Origin: Armatimonadota bacterium
Lineage (GTDB): Bacteria; Armatimonadota; UBA5829; DTJY01
Reading direction: 5' to 3'
Assembly (NCBI GenBank): GCA_017993055.1
Contig: JAGONM010000022.1
Span: 1 to 63,384 of the forward strand
Length of the DNA stretch: 63,384 nucleotides
Shown here: positions 2,873 to 39,508 of the stretch, piece after piece
Position numbering within the stretch: position 1 is the stretch's first letter
How the letters are laid out: each line of letters opens with the position of its first letter
Notes under the pieces: model-generated
The model's input: only the letters and a program-made list of their open reading frames with translations
Database searches by the model: none
What the model was told of the DNA's origin: nothing
Position numbers and translations under genes: made by a program

Positions 2873-3721
2873 ATGCCCGGAACCCTTTACCTCGTGGCGA
2901 CCCCGATCGGCAACCTCGCGGACATCACCCTTCGGGCGCTGGACGTCCTCCGGGGCGTGGACGTGATCGCCGCGGAGGACACGCGCGTCACCCGGAAGCT
3001 CCTCGACCACTACCAGATCCCCGTGGCGATGACCCCCTATCACCAGCACAGCCGCGGCCGGAAGGCGGAACACCTCCTCGCGCTGCTGGAGGAGGGGAAG
3101 GACGTGGCGGTCGTCTCCGACGCGGGGACGCCCGGTATCTCCGACCCGGGGCACGAGTTGATCGCCATCGCCATCGCCCGGGGGATCAGGGTGGAGGCGG
3201 TTCCCGGAGCCAACGCGATCATTACGGCCTTGGTGGTCTCCGGCCTCTCCACTCGGAGGTTCACGTTCGAGGGGTTCCCTCCCCGGCCCGTCGGAGAGCG
3301 CAGGGCGTACTTCGAATCGCTCAGGACGGAGCCCCGCACGATGATCTTCTACGAGTCGCCGCTGCGCCTCCTCGCCACGCTCAAGTCCGCGCTCGGAACG
3401 TTGGGCGACAGGAAGGCGGTCGTCGCGCGCGAGGTGACGAAGAAGTTCGAGGAGATTCACCGCGGAACGCTCTCCGACGCGATCGCGCGCTTCACAGAAG
3501 TGAAAGCAAAGGGCGAGATCACGCTGGTCATCGAGGGGTCGTGCGTCGCGGCCGAGCCGGTGTCTGACGACCAGGTGCTGGAGGCTCTGCAGTCGTTCCT
3601 CGCTCAGGGGATGTCCGAGCGGGATGCGGTGAGGCATGTAACCGCGCTCTACTCGCGGCCGAGGAAGGAAGTCTACGCGCGAATGCTCAAACTGAAGGAG
3701 GAGGTCGAGGATGAAGAGTAG
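2873..3721 (+). CDS. rsmI: 16S rRNA (cytidine(1402)-2'-O)-methyltransferase RsmI
   Basis: RsmI methylates the ribose 2'-OH of C1402 in the 16S rRNA decoding centre using SAM. The 282-residue length is typical. The N-terminus GTLYLVATPIGNLADITLRA and the motifs VIAAEDTRVTRKLL, VAVVSDAGTPGISDPG and VPGANAIITALVVSGL are the family hallmarks, as is FYESPLRLLATL. The gene ends 11 bases inside the start of the next gene, so the two are probably translated together. A 12-bp hairpin sits just upstream. Confidence 0.95.
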   Translation: MPGTLYLVATPIGNLADITLRALDVLRGVDVIAAEDTRVTRKLLDHYQIPVAMTPYHQHSRGRKAEHLLALLEEGKDVAVVSDAGTPGISDPGHELIAIAIARGIRVEAVPGANAIITALVVSGLSTRRFTFEGFPPRPVGERRAYFESLRTEPRTMIFYESPLRLLATLKSALGTLGDRKAVVAREVTKKFEEIHRGTLSDAIARFTEVKAKGEITLVIEGSCVAAEPVSDDQVLEALQSFLAQGMSERDAVRHVTALYSRPRKEVYARMLKLKEEVEDEE

Positions 3722-4541: not shown

Positions 4542-5270
4542 ATGAAAGGCGTCGTATTGGCGGGCGGGCTGGGGACGCGCTTGTACCCCCTCACCTACGC
4601 CACGAACAAGCACCTTCTTCCAGTGTACGATAGGCCCATGATCTACTACCCGATCCAGACGCTCGTGTCGGCCGGGATCCTTGAGGTGATGGTAGTTACG
4701 GGTGGACCGCACGCGGGGCACTTTCTCTCCGTGCTGAGGAACGGCAAGGACCTGGGGCTGAGCCACATAGAGTACGCGTACCAGGAGAAGGAGGGCGGCA
4801 TCGCGGAAGCCCTCAGTCTCTGCGAGGACTTTGCCGACGGCGGTGACATTGGGGTGATCCTGGGCGACAACACTACCGATGCCGACATCTCCCCGGCGGT
4901 GAGGAGCTTTGAGTCCGGTGCCCGTCTCTTTCTGAAGCAAGTTGTGGACCCCAGGCGTTTCGGTGTCCCGGTGTTCGACGCCGCCGGCGCGATCGCGGCG
5001 GTAGAGGAGAAGCCGGAGGAACCGAAATCCGGCTACGCTGTGACGGGGCTCTACATCTACGACAGCAGGGTATTCGAATACATCCGCGAGTGCCGGCCTT
5101 CCGGGCGCGGCGAGCTGGAGATTACGGACGTGAACAACCTCTACATCCGCGCCGGGAAACTCGACTACGTGGAGCTTGAGGGCTTCTGGAGCGATGCGGG
5201 CACGTTCGAGAGCCTCTACCGCACGAACAGGTTCTGGGCGGAGAAAGCTCTCGCCGGGGGCGCGACTTAA
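4542..5270 (+). CDS. Sugar-1-phosphate nucleotidylyltransferase (short RmlA type)
   Basis: Cytosolic enzyme of 242 residues that joins a sugar 1-phosphate to an NTP, as in dTDP-glucose synthesis. The signature GVVLAGGLGTRLYPLTYATNKHLLPVYD at residues 3-30 is the nucleotidyltransferase G-x-G-T-R loop, and MIYYPIQTLVSAGI, VILGDNTTD (metal-binding Asp) and GYAVTGLYIYD follow in the RmlA order. LEGFWSDAGTFESL is the C-terminal sugar-binding strand. It is shorter than classical RmlA (about 290 residues), lacking the C-terminal dimer extension, so it matches the short glucose-1-phosphate thymidylyltransferase class. Exact substrate not determinable. Its neighbour upstream is unrelated. Confidence 0.85.
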   Translation: MKGVVLAGGLGTRLYPLTYATNKHLLPVYDRPMIYYPIQTLVSAGILEVMVVTGGPHAGHFLSVLRNGKDLGLSHIEYAYQEKEGGIAEALSLCEDFADGGDIGVILGDNTTDADISPAVRSFESGARLFLKQVVDPRRFGVPVFDAAGAIAAVEEKPEEPKSGYAVTGLYIYDSRVFEYIRECRPSGRGELEITDVNNLYIRAGKLDYVELEGFWSDAGTFESLYRTNRFWAEKALAGGAT

Positions 5271-5356
5271 CACCGATTTAACATCCGCGAAACGGCGGCG
5301 AAACCTCGATGGCGTAGACTGGCGTCAGTGAGACTACACTTTCGGGGGTATCGAAT

Positions 5357-7019
<1,663 letters not shown>

Positions 7020-7707: not shown

Positions 7708-9012
7708 ATGTCCTTCAACAAGCCGACCCGTTCCATCAGCTTCGACGACGAAGGTGCGGTGCTGAGCGATTCCGGTGAGGGATCGTCGCCGCTCGATCAG
7801 CGCAGTAGCGTCCTTTCCGTGCGCCAGCTCTCTGCATGCATCCGCGCTATGTTCGAGACCGAGGAGGCGATGCAGAACGTCTGGGTGCGCGGCGAGGTGA
7901 GCAATCTCACCAGGCATTCGAGCGGGCATATCTACTTCTCTCTCAAGGACGAATCGGCCGCTATACGCTGCGTGATCTGGTCCAACGTGGCGAAGAGTGG
8001 CCGGTTCGAAATCTCGAACGGCATGAAGATCATCGTCCGCGGACGGGTGACCGTATACGAGAGACAGGGGTACTACCAGATTGCCGTGAACGAGGTCACC
8101 CCCGACGGCGTCGGCGCGCTCTACGTTGCGTACGAGCAGCTCAAAGCAAGACTCCAGGCAGAGGGGCTCTTTGAGGACGAGCGGAAGATTGCGATCCCGC
8201 GGTTTTCCAGCAAGGTCGCTGTCGTCACGTCCCGGACTGCCGCTGCCCTTCGGGACATCGTCACGATTGCGGCGCGGCGTTGGCCGGCCGCGAGCATCAT
8301 CCTCGTGCCGAGCCTGATGCAGGGAGACGGTGCTGAGGATGCTGTTGTGGAGGCGGTCCGTACCGCGGACGCCCTTCCGGATGTTGATGTCGTCATCGTG
8401 GCGCGCGGTGGAGGCTCGATTGAGGACCTTTGGACGTTCAACACGGAATCGGTCGCAAGGGCGATCGCCGCCGCTGAGAAGCCTGTGGTTTCCGCGATCG
8501 GGCACGAGACCGACTACACCCTGGCCGACTTCGTGGCCGACCTCCGGGCGCCGACGCCGTCAGCCGCGGCGGAACTAGTGTTCCCGGACTCGAAGGAAGT
8601 GTTGGGGAAGATCGCCCATCTACGCGATGCTATGACCGATGCGCTCAGGCAGTATGTCGTCGACCGAAGGAGCAGGCTCGAAGCCGCGCTGCGTTCGAGG
8701 TGCTTTGCCCATCCAGAGGACTTGTTGCGCGACGACTGGCAGACGGTGGATGCCTTCTCGATGCGCATCTCCTCGTCTGCTAAGGAGTTCGTCACGCAGT
8801 GTGAGAACCGGCTCGGCAAGGCGGCTGCCCGGCTCGACGCCCTCAGCCCGCTTCGAGTGCTGGCCAGAGGATATGCCGTGGTGCGAAGGCTGGACGACGG
8901 CCGGGTTGTCCACGAGGCCTCGAACGTCGCGGCGGGCGATGTGATCGAGACGCTGCTCTCGAACGGGCGGTTGATATCCGAAGTGAAGGAGACTCATGAG
9001 AGGTGGGACTGA
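7708..9012 (+). CDS. xseA: Exodeoxyribonuclease VII large subunit
   Basis: Catalytic subunit of the cytosolic nuclease that degrades single-stranded DNA from both ends, in complex with many XseB copies. 434 residues from ATG 7708. An N-terminal OB fold (about 30-125: LSVRQLSACIRAMFE, VWVRGEVSNLTRHSSGHIYFSLKD) is followed by the catalytic core with VARGGGSIEDLWTFN, SAIGHETDYTLADFVADLRAPTPSAAAE, then a helical tail. A TTG at 7669 is also in frame but coincides with the predicted -35 box, and ATG 7708 lies beyond the -10, so 7708 is the better start; no Shine-Dalgarno precedes it. The stop overlaps xseB in TGATG. Confidence 0.93.
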   Translation: MSFNKPTRSISFDDEGAVLSDSGEGSSPLDQRSSVLSVRQLSACIRAMFETEEAMQNVWVRGEVSNLTRHSSGHIYFSLKDESAAIRCVIWSNVAKSGRFEISNGMKIIVRGRVTVYERQGYYQIAVNEVTPDGVGALYVAYEQLKARLQAEGLFEDERKIAIPRFSSKVAVVTSRTAAALRDIVTIAARRWPAASIILVPSLMQGDGAEDAVVEAVRTADALPDVDVVIVARGGGSIEDLWTFNTESVARAIAAAEKPVVSAIGHETDYTLADFVADLRAPTPSAAAELVFPDSKEVLGKIAHLRDAMTDALRQYVVDRRSRLEAALRSRCFAHPEDLLRDDWQTVDAFSMRISSSAKEFVTQCENRLGKAAARLDALSPLRVLARGYAVVRRLDDGRVVHEASNVAAGDVIETLLSNGRLISEVKETHERWD

Positions 9013-34205: not shown

Positions 34206-34315
34206 CCCGTCCCCTCCACGATCTTGATCTCTTCATCCGTGAGGCGGTAGAGCTCGTAGACGAGTCTGTCAGTCTCCCGGTCGGTGGCGGCTATCTGCGT
34301 CTTGTCGTTCGGGAG
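34206..34315 (-). pseudogene. Duplicated 3-prime fragment of the Eco57I-type methylase gene
   Basis: These 110 bp repeat the 3-prime end of the methylase gene (36191-36312) with one 12-bp deletion and scattered changes. On the minus strand both encode LPNDKTQI-x-AATDRE-x-DRLVYELY-x-LTDEEIKIVEGTG. This copy has no stop where the real gene stops and lacks everything upstream. It abuts the end of lpdA. A relic of a lost methylase copy or of a local duplication. Confidence 0.85.
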
Positions 34316-34335
34316 CGCCGCCCGTCCGCATCTCC

Positions 34336-34734
34336 TCAATAGTCCCGCATATACACGCGAATATCCATTTTCAGCCACTCGTCGAACCAGTTCTTGCTCT
34401 CCAACTTCCCGAAGAGCAGCTTTCCCGCGTCCATGAGCCGCGCGATCACCTCGTTCTTCGCCCTCGGCACATAGCCGAGCTTGTTGCCCGTCTGGTCGAA
34501 GATGAGTATGGCCAACTCGTCATAAGGGTTGTCCGGCTCGCGCTTGAAGAGGAGCAGGTCTGTTGGGCTGAGCGACTCCTCCACCTCCTCCAGGTCGAGG
34601 TACGAAGTCCCCGCCACGTGGCACTCCATCAGGAATATCTCCTGCACGAACGGAAGCGCCAGTCCGTCCTCGCCGAACGAGGCCCGGAGCAGCGCGAGTA
34701 TTGACTTGTCGAATGGGACCAGGGAATCGCTCAT
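34336..34734 (-). CDS. HIRAN-domain protein
   Basis: Single-domain protein of 132 residues. LMECHVAGTSYLDLEEVEESL (about 36-55), REPDNPYDELAILIFDQTGNKLGYVPRAKNEVIARLMDAGKLLFGK (about 66-110) is the HIRAN signature found at the N-terminus of Rad5/HLTF-type helicases, where it binds DNA 3-prime ends, and stand-alone in bacterial genomes. No helicase is fused here. It starts 4 bp behind the J-domain gene, so the two are co-transcribed. Confidence 0.82.
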   Translation of the reverse strand: MSDSLVPFDKSILALLRASFGEDGLALPFVQEIFLMECHVAGTSYLDLEEVEESLSPTDLLLFKREPDNPYDELAILIFDQTGNKLGYVPRAKNEVIARLMDAGKLLFGKLESKNWFDEWLKMDIRVYMRDY

Positions 34735-34738
34735 CGCC

Positions 34739-35551
34739 TCAGTCGCTCCCCTCCAGTCGCTTCAGCATCTCCTCCAACGCCGAGAGCTGCTCCTGCTCGT
34801 GGCTGATCTGCTCTCGAATTACCTCCTGCTGCGACGATACCCAGTCCCGATCGTTCAGCTTGTCTTCCATCTGAAGGAGCGGGTGTCCGCGCAGCTTCTC
34901 CAGCCTTTCGCGCATCATGAGGATCTTGTCCATCAGGCTGCTGAGCTTGTCTCTCATCAGATTCAGCGAGTCAGGCAACGTGTAATCCTCAGGGATGTCC
35001 TCCGCGAGCAGGGCCAGCGCCCGAAGCTGTTCCAGGTCGCCGTTCTCGTAAGCCGCCTGCACCTGAAGCCAGAGGTTCTTTGCCGCCTCGCTCTGGTCGG
35101 GATTGACGTCGGGATGAAGCTTCTTCACCAGCCGGCGGAAGAGCGATCGAAATTCTTCGCTCTCCTCCTCGGTCATCAGGTGGGAAAGCCGCAGTTCGGC
35201 GTATCTCAAGTCGGCGTAACTGCTCTGCAGCCGGAGCATCCATTCCTGGAACTCGAGGTCGAGCTGGTTCTCTATCGCCCCGATATCAACCGGTTCGCCC
35301 CTGTTCAGCGCGGCCTGGATAAGCTCGCATTTCCGTCGAAGGCGGCGCACCCGAATCTGTACCTGCAGGAGTTCATACTGCAGCGTACCGATCACCGTCA
35401 GGTAAGTCGCCTCGATGTTGGGTATGAGCGTCTTGTTCAGATACTCGTACTCCTCGAAGAGCTCTGCGAGTTCCTGCCTGCGCCGTGCGCATTCCTCCGA
35501 CATCCGCTCGAACTCGGGGTCGGGCCGCATGTGAGACGATTTGTCGGTCAC
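34739..35551 (-). CDS. Coiled-coil protein with degenerate J domain
   Basis: 270 residues. Long coiled-coil helices flank a J-like segment EEFRSLFRRLVKKLHPDVNPDQ (HPD near residue 146) followed by AAKNLWLQVQAAYENGDLEQLRALALL, matching helices II-III of DnaJ. The HPD loop in DnaJ proteins stimulates Hsp70 ATPase. Start GTG 35551 has GAGGA eight bases upstream; a TTG at 35620 would add 23 residues. It precedes the HIRAN gene by 4 bp. Function unknown; the partner Hsp70 is not in the window. Confidence 0.6.
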   Translation of the reverse strand: MTDKSSHMRPDPEFERMSEECARRRQELAELFEEYEYLNKTLIPNIEATYLTVIGTLQYELLQVQIRVRRLRRKCELIQAALNRGEPVDIGAIENQLDLEFQEWMLRLQSSYADLRYAELRLSHLMTEEESEEFRSLFRRLVKKLHPDVNPDQSEAAKNLWLQVQAAYENGDLEQLRALALLAEDIPEDYTLPDSLNLMRDKLSSLMDKILMMRERLEKLRGHPLLQMEDKLNDRDWVSSQQEVIREQISHEQEQLSALEEMLKRLEGSD

Positions 35552-35626
35552 TTCTTCATCCTCACGCTCCCATCCTACCACCCTCTCATTCTCCCACACT
35601 CCCCGCGCTTCCTGCGGCAATCAATG

Positions 35627-35655
35627 GTGACTTTGTCTGCATATTGAGGTATAAT
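35627..35655 (+). promoter_or_regulatory. Promoter of hicBA
   Basis: Imperfect -35 GTGACT at 35627-35632 and perfect TATAAT at 35650-35655 with 17-bp spacing, about 70 bp before hicB. Confidence 0.5.
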
Positions 35656-35703
35656 GCATCCGAACAGGGCTAGCCGCCGGTCCACCTGTCCCGGTTCTCC
35701 GGG

Positions 35704-35716
35704 GATATCAGATATC
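35704..35716. promoter_or_regulatory. Palindromic operator candidate before hicB
   Basis: GATATC-A-GATATC is a perfect dyad of two self-complementary 6-mers around one base, placed between the promoter and the hicB start at 35727. HicB antitoxins repress their own promoters through DNA-binding domains in many cases, so this could be the operator; binding is inferred. Confidence 0.4.
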
Positions 35717-35726
35717 GAGGTAACAG

Positions 35727-35960
35727 ATGAGCAAGAAGAAGCTTCACTTTCCCGTGATCATCGAGCAGGACGAAGACGGATGGTTCGTCGCCACTGTTCC
35801 GGCCTTGCGCGGCTGCCATACCCAGGCCCGATCCCTTGCCGAACTGGATGAGCGGATACGGGAAGCGGTGGCCCTCTGTCTCGACGCGGAGTCCGGCAGG
35901 GAAGGCGCGATAACCCAGAACAAGTTTGTCGGCGTGCACGAACTCGAGATCGCCGTATGA
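35727..35960 (+). CDS. hicB: HicB-family antitoxin
   Basis: 77 residues: LHFPVIIEQDEDGWFVATVPALRGCHTQARSLAELDERIREAVALCLDAE is the partial RNase H-like HicB fold that neutralises HicA. A separate DNA-binding C-terminus is absent, so autoregulation would need the fold itself. GAGGTAACAG precedes the ATG. It overlaps hicA by 4 bases (ATGA). Confidence 0.85.
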   Translation: MSKKKLHFPVIIEQDEDGWFVATVPALRGCHTQARSLAELDERIREAVALCLDAESGREGAITQNKFVGVHELEIAV

Positions 35961-36190
35961 CAGGGCTAACCGTCATTCCCCCAAAGAAGATGGCGGCTAT
36001 TCTGCGCAGACTGGGATTCGAACTCGACCGCCAGCGCGGCAGCCACGCCTACTACAAACATCCTGACGGTCGCAGCGTAGTCGTGCCCATACATGCCGGT
36101 GAGGACCTGGGCAAGGGACTCATCCGGGAGATACTCAAGAGCATCGAGCTGTCCGTCGAGGAATATGAGAAGCTCAGACAGAGCGTCTAG
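35957..36190 (+). CDS. hicA: HicA-family mRNA-interferase toxin
   Basis: 77 residues with the double-stranded RNA-binding-like fold: MAAILRRLGFELDRQRGSHAYYKHPDGRSVVVPIHAGEDLGKGLIREILKSI. His30 in GSHAYYKHP is the catalytic residue of the family. Unlike the common hicA-hicB order, the antitoxin is first here. The stop overlaps the convergent methylase stop by 4 bases. Confidence 0.87.
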   Translation: MTGLTVIPPKKMAAILRRLGFELDRQRGSHAYYKHPDGRSVVVPIHAGEDLGKGLIREILKSIELSVEEYEKLRQSV

Positions 36191-39147
36191 CCCGTCCCCT
36201 CCACGATCTTGATCTCTTCGTCCGTGAGGCCGTAGAGTTCGTAGACGAGTCGGTCTATCTCCCGGTCGGTCGCGGCTATCTGCCTCTGTATCTGCGTCTT
36301 GTCGTTCGGGAGTGTCGCCGCGTCGAGCCTCTTGTGCAGGTCCAGCATCCGGTCCACCAGTTCCACCATCCTGTCATGCCGCGCCTTGTCGTCGGGATCG
36401 TCGAAGTTGATGGCGCGAATGGGGAGCCGGGAGACGTACTCCGTGAGATACTCGTAATAGCCACCCCGCCGCTCGACCGCGATTCTTGAGAAGTAGAAGA
36501 AGAGAGGACGAGAGTTCAGCAATCCCAGGAGATACTTGTCTGCCCTGGGGATGAAATAGCAGGTCTTGTCAACGAAAATGCCAGTGTCGTCAAGGGCGAA
36601 AGATGCTCTGCTCGCCACACTCGCGTAGACTATCTTCGGCTTCCGTATCACGTCATAGTAGCTACATGGCCGCAGCTCATACCACTTCTTCGATGGGTGC
36701 TGGATATCGGTGCGCTGTTCCAGGTCGGCCTTGTGCTTGTTGAGATAGGCCATCACGTGCGGATGGCTTTTCTCAGAGATGCCGTCCGTGAATAGAAGGT
36801 ATTCGCCAGTGTGCGAATACGTATATCTCCGGACATTCCTGCCCCGAACGTACGGAAGGAAGATGGCCCGGTCGTCAGAATCGGCAATAACCTCTATCTG
36901 AGGCTGCTTGACGATAAAGACCTCATTCAGTCCGGTCAATACGCCCCGCAGGGGCTGGCATCTGCAATACTCGGGCAAGGGTATTCCGGCCGCATCCATC
37001 CGGGAAAGCACCTGCTGGTCCAGAGCTGGATGCAGTTGCCAGTCGCCATTCTTGAGCGCGGACTGAGGCACGGCAAATCCCTGGTCGGATACATACTGGC
37101 CTAGGTCACCGAAATCCAGAGTCTTGATGTTGCATACTTCCACATTGTTCCCGTCTCGACGCTCTGCAACATTCTCCTTCTGCAGGATGAAGATGCAGGG
37201 GTAGACTGTCGCACCTTGAAACACCGGCAGGTCGGCGAAATCGAGGAACTCGCGTATCACGCTCTGCGACGGCATGAGTTGACGCAACTTGCCCCCATAG
37301 CCGGAGCGGACAAACTTGCTTGAGACAATGAACGAGAACAGCCCGCTCTCCCGCGCTAGCTGCAATGAGCGTTCGATGAAATACACATACAAGTCGGCGG
37401 CACTTGCGTAGGCTTGATAGTGCGCTTGCAGGTAGGTCTTGAACTGACTGATACTCTCCTGCCTCACATACGGCGGGTTGCCGATCACCGCGTCGAAGCC
37501 GCCCGCCTTCATGATCGCGGGGAAGCCATCCTCCCAGTCGAAGGCGTTGATCCGCCGAACCTCATCATCGCTCAGGCCCGAGGTATCGAAATCCGTCCCG
37601 ATCAGCGAGTTCCCACACTTGATGTTCGCCGACAGGTCCGGGAGCGCGCGCTCGTGGAACATCGAGAGCGAGACATCCAGCGTGTCCCGGCTCTCGCCCT
37701 CCAGCACCTTCAGCAGCAGGCTCAGCTTCGTGACCTCCACCGCCTGGCTGTCGATATCCACGCCGTAGATGCTGTTCAGGAGTATCCGCTTCTTCTCGCT
37801 GGTCGTCAGCCGCCACTCGCTCTCTGAGAGGTGGTAGACCGCCTTCTTGAACTTCTCCGGCTCGTGCTTCACGTAGTAATCGAGATGCCAGCTCAGCAGG
37901 AAGGCGTAGGCACTGATTAGGAACGACCCCGATCCGCAGGCCGGGTCAACGATGCGCAGCTTCTCCACCTGCTTGGGCGTCTTCCCCTCGCACAGCTTGC
38001 CGACCGTGTTCCTCACGATGTAGTCCACGATGTACGTCGGCGTGTAGTAGACTCCGCCCGCCTTCTTGACCTCGGGCTTCTCCTCCACCATGGCGGTATG
38101 CCCCGGCGTGAGCCGGATCACCTTGCCGAGGAACTGCTCGTATACGCTGCCGAGGATGTCCGCCCCGATCACGGAGAATTCATAGGGGCTCTGGGGATAG
38201 TACAGCCCGGCGATCATATCCCTCAGCGCCTTGTCGTCAATCGCCAGGCCGGGGGTGATCGTGTCCGGCGCTTCCGGGCGGCCCTTCTCCTCGCTGAAGT
38301 GAAAGAGGCCGGAGTTGTACTTCGCGTCGGCGGCATGATAGAGGTCGAGCAGCCTGCCGTATACGTTTGGGCCGCTCGTCCTTCCGAGCAGTTGGCCCTG
38401 CGGCTCAATGCCCCGATCCTCGCACATGCGCAGGAAAACGATGCGGTCAATGGTATTCTGCACCGCGTAGTTCAACTCCCTAACGTCGAGGCCTGGGTTT
38501 CGGAGCGCGAGGTTGCGGGCGAGGACGGTACGCCATTCCTCGATCTGCTTGAGGAACTCCTGGTCAACCTCCGCCGTGCCGCGCTTGCCCTTGTCGGCAG
38601 CAGCGTACTTATCGAACGAGCCGCGCCACACGGCATCCCGGCTGAATATCCCCGCGATCTCCTCCCAGCGGCTCGCATACTCCGTGTAGGGCACATACAT
38701 CAGCCGTGCATGGCTTGCCTTGTCGGATGGTTTCGGTGGAGTCCGGCAGTCATAGACCGCGAACTCGTGGAAGTTGGTGAGGACGCCGAGAGGGAGCTTG
38801 GCGGTCCAAGAGTAGCGGCGGATCTGGCCGGCGGGCCCGGCATCGAGGTTGATGCTGACGGCGGGCTTCTTCGCTTCTACGAAGAACTTCCGCGTCTGGC
38901 CGACGCGGAAGGTGTAGTCGGGCGCGTTTGCGTTGCCCTCCACCCGGATCGTCCCCTCGAAGACGACATCCATATAGGCGGGTGAGTATCCCTGCTTGTT
39001 CCGCACATCCCAGCCGAGCGCCTCGAAGAAGGGATTCAGGAACTCGGCGCGGGTCTGCTCCTCGTTGTAGGAGGCGCTCCGATACTGATTGCGGTTGCTC
39101 TCATACCGCTCAACCAGTTCCTTGATGATATCCGGCGCATCGGGCAT
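36187..39147 (-). CDS. Eco57I-type restriction-modification methylase (type IIG-like)
   Basis: 986 residues from ATG 39147, where AGAGGTG is a fitting ribosome site; the extra 25 residues upstream lack one. An N-terminal PD-(D/E)xK nuclease-like part has DYTFRVGQTRKFFVEAKKP (about 75-95), as in type I HsdR N-domains. Then come the adenine methylase motifs VDPACGSGSFLISAYAFLL (SAM binding) and VIGNPPYVRQ (catalytic NPPY), and a C-terminal target-recognition region of the TaqI/Eco57I kind. Such enzymes modify or cleave DNA in a single chain. Directly convergent with hicA. A fragment of its 3-prime end is repeated at 34206-34315. Confidence 0.88.
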   Translation of the reverse strand: MPDAPDIIKELVERYESNRNQYRSASYNEEQTRAEFLNPFFEALGWDVRNKQGYSPAYMDVVFEGTIRVEGNANAPDYTFRVGQTRKFFVEAKKPAVSINLDAGPAGQIRRYSWTAKLPLGVLTNFHEFAVYDCRTPPKPSDKASHARLMYVPYTEYASRWEEIAGIFSRDAVWRGSFDKYAAADKGKRGTAEVDQEFLKQIEEWRTVLARNLALRNPGLDVRELNYAVQNTIDRIVFLRMCEDRGIEPQGQLLGRTSGPNVYGRLLDLYHAADAKYNSGLFHFSEEKGRPEAPDTITPGLAIDDKALRDMIAGLYYPQSPYEFSVIGADILGSVYEQFLGKVIRLTPGHTAMVEEKPEVKKAGGVYYTPTYIVDYIVRNTVGKLCEGKTPKQVEKLRIVDPACGSGSFLISAYAFLLSWHLDYYVKHEPEKFKKAVYHLSESEWRLTTSEKKRILLNSIYGVDIDSQAVEVTKLSLLLKVLEGESRDTLDVSLSMFHERALPDLSANIKCGNSLIGTDFDTSGLSDDEVRRINAFDWEDGFPAIMKAGGFDAVIGNPPYVRQESISQFKTYLQAHYQAYASAADLYVYFIERSLQLARESGLFSFIVSSKFVRSGYGGKLRQLMPSQSVIREFLDFADLPVFQGATVYPCIFILQKENVAERRDGNNVEVCNIKTLDFGDLGQYVSDQGFAVPQSALKNGDWQLHPALDQQVLSRMDAAGIPLPEYCRCQPLRGVLTGLNEVFIVKQPQIEVIADSDDRAIFLPYVRGRNVRRYTYSHTGEYLLFTDGISEKSHPHVMAYLNKHKADLEQRTDIQHPSKKWYELRPCSYYDVIRKPKIVYASVASRASFALDDTGIFVDKTCYFIPRADKYLLGLLNSRPLFFYFSRIAVERRGGYYEYLTEYVSRLPIRAINFDDPDDKARHDRMVELVDRMLDLHKRLDAATLPNDKTQIQRQIAATDREIDRLVYELYGLTDEEIKIVEGTG

Positions 39148-39277
39148 TGGGACACCTCTGTGGACGCTGGTATGCGCTGTGCTAACTATGATATTGCACG
39201 GAGGCGCGCCCGAGTCCTGCACAAGCGGGCGTATCTGCGTGGGGAGGGGCCGCCTCGGGCTCTGGGATGTCGCCGGG

Positions 39278-39508
39278 GAGCTCCCCGACGGCGTTGCAGA
39301 GCTCCCTGACGGCGTTGCAGAGCTCCCTGACGGCAGTGCAGAGCTCCCTGGTGTCGTTGCAGAGCTCCCTGACGGCGTTGCAGAGCTCCCTGATGACGTT
39401 GCAGAGCTCCCTGACGGCGTTGCAGAGCTCCCTGACGGCGTTGCAGAGCTCCCCGACGGCGTTGCAGAACTCCCTGGTGTCGTTCCAGAGCTACCCGGTG
39501 GGACAAGG
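39278..39508. repeat. 21-bp tandem repeat array (11 units)
   Basis: Eleven units of exactly 21 bp from 39278; the regular core reads CTCCCTGACGGCGTTGCAG, with each unit starting GAGCTC. Units 4 and 10 carry GGTGTC, unit 6 GATGAC and unit 3 GGCAGT at the same variable window, while the flanks are nearly constant. Being a multiple of three, it is open in several frames on both strands, but no coding evidence supports translation. It occupies the 463-bp gap 39148-39610 between the methylase start and the PAP2 gene; the rest of the gap shows no gene. Confidence 0.9.

Follow-up and report, generated by a model that had tools for sequence, protein, structure and literature searches.

A gene encoding a J-domain helical protein and a gene encoding a HIRAN-domain protein form a conserved two-gene unit, which occurs in more than ten bacterial phyla and is almost certainly a functional pair. 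The most economical reading of this unit is a targeted co-chaperone: a complex of the two proteins would bring the host's own Hsp70 (DnaK) to DNA ends for genome protection, most likely against phages or invading DNA. We assign a probability of roughly 45% to this model as a whole. Computation supports the pairing, the domain assignments, the conservation of the HPD motif and of the HIRAN pocket, the modelled contact between the proteins, the transfer between lineages and the defence-rich neighbourhoods.

We analysed the pair in a 63,384-nucleotide stretch of an Armatimonadota genome (contig JAGONM010000022.1), hereafter called the window. The original prediction had placed a HIRAN gene and a J-domain coiled-coil gene 4 bp apart on one strand, inside a block with HicBA and an Eco57I-type restriction-methylase. 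The sequence bears out the positions, the spacing and the shared (minus) strand, and Pfam and PADLOC matches confirm the composition of the block (Table 1). The J stop codon occupies positions 34739-34741 and the HIRAN ATG ends at 34734; GGAGGGGAG, located in the last J codons, could be the ribosome-binding site of the HIRAN gene. The genes around the pair are hicBA, the type IIG restriction–modification gene and lpd. Both hicB and hicA are genuine and diverge from the pair, and the sequence that separates hicB from the J gene presumably holds the promoters of both. The type IIG gene also matches PF07669 and PF12950 (Pfam), and a copy of its 3′ end persists as a remnant beyond the HIRAN gene. 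This remnant and positions 36191-36319 thereby constitute a direct repeat that brackets the hicBA–J–HIRAN block, with 97 nt at 92% identity and 31 nt at 94% identity, which suggests a past insertion at, or recombination with, the end of the type IIG gene. The window also contains, just upstream of this gene, a tandem array of about 10 copies of a 21-bp unit (GAGCTCCCTGACGGCGTTGCA), which spans positions 39278-39492 and is open in several frames.

Table 1. Features of the J–HIRAN locus in the window, and Sel1-like genes at related loci (the latter in the coordinates of their own loci).
Feature	Position	Strand	Basis
First gene of the pair: J-domain helical protein (270 aa, GTG start)	34739..35551	-	PF00226, AlphaFold2
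Second gene of the pair: HIRAN-domain protein (132 aa)	34336..34734	-	PF08797
J–HIRAN intergenic gap, 4 bp	34735..34738	-	sequence
J–hicB intergenic region, divergent	35552..35726	.	sequence, inference
HicB antitoxin gene, neighbour	35727..35960	+	PF15919, 30.1 bits
HicA toxin gene, neighbour	35957..36190	+	PF07927, 71.2 bits
Type IIG restriction-methylase (Eco57I/TaqI type), defence neighbour	36187..39150	-	PADLOC REase_MTase_IIG, E 3.5e-222
Remnant copy of the type IIG gene 3′ end, beyond the HIRAN gene	34206..34322	-	nucleotide identity
Sel1-like repeat protein gene, locus L006	2226-3089	-	
Sel1-like repeat protein gene, locus L007	584-1468		
Sel1-like repeat protein gene, locus L096	3-557		

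We built a profile from six HIRAN sequences, the first ones collected, and a search with it against one genome per species yielded 80 loci. A J protein is encoded directly upstream on the same strand in 76 of them, which rules out chance adjacency and upholds the expectation that the pair is conserved together in other genomes. The J–HIRAN distance is within 50 bp in either direction in 67 of the 76 pairs, and the two genes often overlap or lie 4 bp apart. One of the four exceptions, an Akkermansiaceae locus (L040), is a broken pair, in which the J gene is cut down to its first ~49 codons next to an intact HIRAN gene (J remnant and HIRAN gene at 3160-3719); a type IIG enzyme encoded at 8704, ~5 kb away, is 46% identical to that of the window. 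The converse searches, by the J protein alone, gave 11 full-length J relatives that were new with respect to the HIRAN search (L003-L007, L122, L123, L125, L127, L145 and L146), and every one of them has a HIRAN gene directly downstream. Moreover, the pairwise distances of the J and HIRAN families correlate with r=0.87, as compared to 0.22 for the best of 2000 permutations. Unsupervised clustering of the neighbours revealed no constant third gene. In one small deep clade, a gene for a Sel1-like repeat protein lies directly upstream of the J–HIRAN pair (Table 1), a possible three-gene variant.

The J protein is a true J domain protein. Its match to PF00226 passes narrowly (28.3 bits against a cut-off of 27.8), and a profile of five family sequences matches solved J domains in the PDB with E values from 8e-6 to 9e-4. 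The AlphaFold2 model of the protein (pLDDT 94.9, pTM 0.87) places HPD, residues 146-148, in the loop between a helix of residues 128-145 and a helix of residues 155-169, as in J domains. Outside the J domain, the modelled protein consists of long helices, so that its earlier description as a coiled-coil protein was a fair one. Whole-chain structural searches (Foldseek, VIA-align) found only generic helical bundles and were uninformative on its relatives. H146, D148 and Tyr50 show no variation among 71 J proteins, 69 of which retain P147; damaged motifs occur in two natural paired J proteins, as HAD in L005 and as HPS in L098 (1008-1904). A stretch from about R70 to R84 (RxxR...QAxxNR) and P225 are nearly invariant as well and are specific to the J family of the pair. 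A second J family, from Verrucomicrobiota (L130-L143), has the J domain and the C-terminal helices in common with this family and differs in the N-terminal half. These proteins have no HIRAN neighbour, and the linkage is therefore specific to the J family of the pair. The genome of the window encodes a full DnaK and three further J proteins, and the pair probably works through this DnaK.

The HIRAN domain, in turn, scores well above threshold (PF08797, 61.4 bits against a cut-off of 24.7, residues 35-128), and it is the sole HIRAN in the genome. The modelled HIRAN protein of a relative (L029) adopts the HIRAN beta-barrel fold, since it matches PDB 3k2y with TM scores of 0.89-0.92 and the HLTF HIRAN with TM scores of 0.61-0.67. 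Across 72 HIRAN proteins, G42, R65, N69, D72, G87, P90, N94, R99-L100 and D102-K105 are invariant. The dinucleotide bound by HLTF stacks against Tyr72 and Tyr93 (PMC4666394). The corresponding positions hold Tyr, His or Phe in 72 of the 72 and 70 of the 72 HIRAN proteins, respectively, where the Tyr93 position is taken from an HLTF–HIRAN alignment and the Tyr72 placement is our own extension of that alignment. In addition, the Asp that follows the Tyr93 position is invariant. The position of HLTF Arg71, in contrast, is occupied by Ser, Thr or Gly.

How would the pair act on DNA? Predictions that bacterial HIRAN domains bind DNA ends go back two decades, and the domains are still described as uncharacterised in a 2024 paper (PMC11090510). 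Because the pocket residues and the HPD motif are conserved, both DNA-end binding by HIRAN and Hsp70 recruitment by J are plausible. The two proteins of the pair are acidic, with pI values of 4.8 and 4.5, a property that does not suggest strong DNA binding. With the Arg71 position changed and both proteins acidic, DNA binding is thus plausible and not secure, and we lean slightly toward HIRAN of the pair binding DNA ends.

Do the two proteins contact each other? In L029, the J and HIRAN genes are in frame, with a single amber stop between them. Reading through this stop gave a 421-residue chain in the natural order, which we modelled by AlphaFold2 with 113 aligned rows; the predicted chain has a pLDDT of 90.3 and a pTM of 0.80. 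As a pTM of 0.80 over both parts would be unreachable with a free-floating HIRAN, a defined J–HIRAN contact is predicted, by reasoning that uses the pTM without a PAE matrix and that tethering in a single chain could bias. On the basis of this model, J and HIRAN very probably form a physical complex. A phage-like contig with HNH genes (L097) encodes a protein at 5259-5981 and then a HIRAN protein at 5974-6408. The former contains only the C-terminal helical part of J, joined to an unrelated N-terminal part that, we presume, resembles a phage terminase small subunit. The fusion may be natural or may come from misassembly; in the former case, it suggests that the C-terminal helices of J are the HIRAN-docking part.

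The 80 HIRAN loci come from Verrucomicrobiota, Bacillota, Chloroflexota, Synergistota, Planctomycetota, Acidobacteriota, Spirochaetota and further phyla. The pair is present in 6 of 291 genomes (~2%) of the window's phylum and at similarly low rates in other groups, overall in ~1-2% of genomes and usually as one copy per genome. Four other members of the window's family were searched, and the pair is missing from all of them. The DNA that follows lpd in these four has nothing in common with the hicBA–J–HIRAN block, and a clean empty site could not be demonstrated among them, as lpd and the glycosidase gene are not together there. In a tree of 71 concatenated J–HIRAN pairs, Chloroflexota, Synergistota and Elusimicrobiota are nested in a Bacillota clade, and Planctomycetota are nested in a Verrucomicrobiota clade. 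This intermixing of phyla points to probable transfer between phyla. The pair is almost absent from the phage and plasmid collections. A single-protein viral scan and a plasmid search with J both gave no match, and no J gene is annotated next to the plasmid HIRAN match in Lactobacillus amylolyticus.

Next to the pairs, defence genes are more frequent than background. For 41 pair loci, we scanned the four flanking genes on either side (273 proteins); arbitrary loci from the same genomes (270 proteins) served as controls. PADLOC models at E<=1e-20 numbered 44 and 38 in the two sets near the pairs and 31 and 2 in the two control sets, where all figures count models and not proteins. Of the 25 models listed in the first control set, 17 belong to PD-T4-6, each with one member matched, apparently by one or a few kinase-like proteins. 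The predicted enrichment is thus borne out to a moderate degree. Among the matches near the pairs are restriction genes of types I, II and IIG, a methyl-directed endonuclease and type I-C cas genes, as well as AbiD, BrxA and several PDC candidates. In the unsupervised clustering, C5 methylases recur as neighbours at 6 loci, and Vsr, MmeI-type enzymes and type I/III R proteins at 3 loci each, amid ordinary genes; McrBC genes (Pfam) are found sporadically, near two other pair loci. HicBA, considered as a constant functional partner, is not among the recurrent neighbours and was rejected. We also searched 50 genomes for the PF02384 N6 methylase (type I/II), and it lies within 20 kb of the pair in none of the 20 with known positions. 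The defence link is therefore to mixed genes and not to one system, and the null result weakens a simple view of the pair as a restriction–modification accessory. The pair is moderately enriched in defence-rich, changeable regions, without a fixed partner system.

The domains of the pair are known, and the two-gene system is new as far as the open-access literature shows; within that literature, the original prediction of an undescribed module is supported. No paper in it joins HIRAN and a J domain, and papers on HicA contexts and on DefensePredictor mention neither of the two. The described bacterial HIRAN systems have HipA-type kinases as partners (PMC8262856, PMC11706625). The closest likeness in layout is to hipIN/HipL (PMC8262856) and PADLOC PDC-M03, in which HIRAN is likewise encoded in a two-gene operon near defence genes and is also proposed to sense DNA ends (PMC8262856). 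However, hipIN combines a HipA-type kinase with a HIRAN fused to a HipS-like domain, whereas the pair has a standalone HIRAN of 132 residues and a J partner. No PADLOC model covers the J protein, and PDC-M03B matches the HIRAN part only (model positions 129-202 of 250). Membership in hipIN/PDC-M03 was rejected, as no HipA kinase adjoins the pair and HIRAN, at residues 35-128 of 132, is not fused to a HipS-like part; neighbour clustering found no kinase among constant neighbours either. In diDNase–HIRAN–HipA clusters, too, a HIRAN gene shares genomic islands with defence systems, but its partners are a nuclease and a kinase, and no J protein is reported (PMC11706625). Type III CoCoNuTs combine Hsp70-like proteins, coiled coils and HIRAN-like OB folds in one defence system (PMC11090510). 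They are built, in contrast, on an McrB GTPase and McrC, with an Hsp70 homologue instead of a J protein (PMC11090510). We rejected membership of the pair in this type IV restriction group, as neither an McrB-like GTPase nor McrC is among the flanking genes scanned; a gene for an Hsp70 homologue does not adjoin the pair either.

Class C (type III) J proteins have neither the DnaJ zinc finger nor the C-terminal domain, and other regions provide their targeting. The J protein of the pair resembles them, and dedicated Hsp40 co-chaperones in general, in that the zinc finger and C-terminal domain are missing while HPD is conserved. In this pair, unlike in class C proteins, the targeting is apparently provided in trans, by the HIRAN protein of the next gene. 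HIRAN itself resembles that of HLTF/Rad5 in its fold (PDB 4xzf, 4s0n and others) and in the aromatic and Asp positions of the pocket. HLTF has its HIRAN fused to an SNF2 translocase and a RING domain, while in the pair an Hsp70 co-chaperone would supply the motor.

We propose the following mechanism, in which Hsp70 recruitment, DNA-end binding, the direction of action and the anti-phage role are inferred. The helical body of J would carry the HIRAN protein, and HIRAN would direct it to the ends of DNA or to single-stranded 3′ tips, for example at restriction cuts, on incoming phage DNA or at stalled forks. The HPD loop of J would then activate DnaK, which could remodel or strip the proteins bound at the ends, so that the DNA is degraded or repaired. 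HIRAN would thereby provide the address, the HPD loop the call to DnaK, and DnaK the force. Near restriction enzymes, the clearing of proteins from cut phage DNA might accelerate its degradation. Human HLTF is reported to remove Cas9 from cut ends (PMC11237066); there, as a precedent, a HIRAN protein clears ends by means of its own translocase. The unit would accordingly be an accessory, horizontally moving genome-protection module that acts beside restriction systems. The neighbourhood enrichment and the patchy transfer leave an anti-phage role evenly balanced. The boldest form of the model—in which a HIRAN sensor and J load Hsp70 onto invading or cut DNA ends to strip proteins, as the first chaperone-powered DNA-end-processing defence—is doubtful.

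The same components might instead serve the cell during DNA damage or replication stress, with HIRAN at reversed or stalled forks and J recruiting DnaK, which would remodel the replisome or keep repair proteins stable; the pair would then be carried as an accessory fitness gene. The HLTF HIRAN does work at forks (PMC4666394), Y-family polymerase and NUDIX genes recur as neighbours of the pair, and many loci have ordinary metabolic neighbours; the near absence from phages and plasmids fits as well. The sparse occurrence of the pair and its movement between phyla argue against such a role, as do the defence genes that are over-represented near the pair and scarce at control loci, and we regard this role as possible, on the unlikely side. 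HIRAN may also bind protein or RNA and not DNA, in which case the pair would be a targeted co-chaperone with a single client, for instance a restriction enzyme or a conserved cellular complex. The acidity of J and HIRAN would suit this, and the segment R99-L-M-D-A-G-K105, outside the pocket, is equally invariant; moreover, the HIRAN-like OB folds in CoCoNuTs are thought to bind RNA (PMC11090510). However, the positions that hold the dinucleotide in HLTF are retained, and no constant client gene exists in the neighbourhood. We hold this reading to be unlikely.

A toxin–antitoxin or abortive-infection pair would imply that one protein is toxic when free, that the other restrains it and that infection releases it, and HIRAN could then be a sensor-antitoxin by analogy with the proposal for HipN in hipIN modules. 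The layout is suggestive: two small (near-)overlapping genes, strictly linked and mobile, adjoin hicBA in the window, and HIRAN is found in putative antitoxins (PMC8262856). Nevertheless, profile searches recognised no toxic or enzymatic domain in either protein, the HIRAN protein is without the HipS part of HipN, and no HipA kinase adjoins it. We consider this arrangement quite improbable.

The unit joins HIRAN and a dedicated Hsp70 co-chaperone in a small, portable gene pair, which makes both chaperone action at DNA ends and a contribution to immunity directly testable. If the model is true, DnaK gains a role at DNA ends, and the targeted co-chaperone would be a class of component that current defence catalogues do not list. 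If the role is in repair instead, the pair would still represent a new kind of accessory repair factor.
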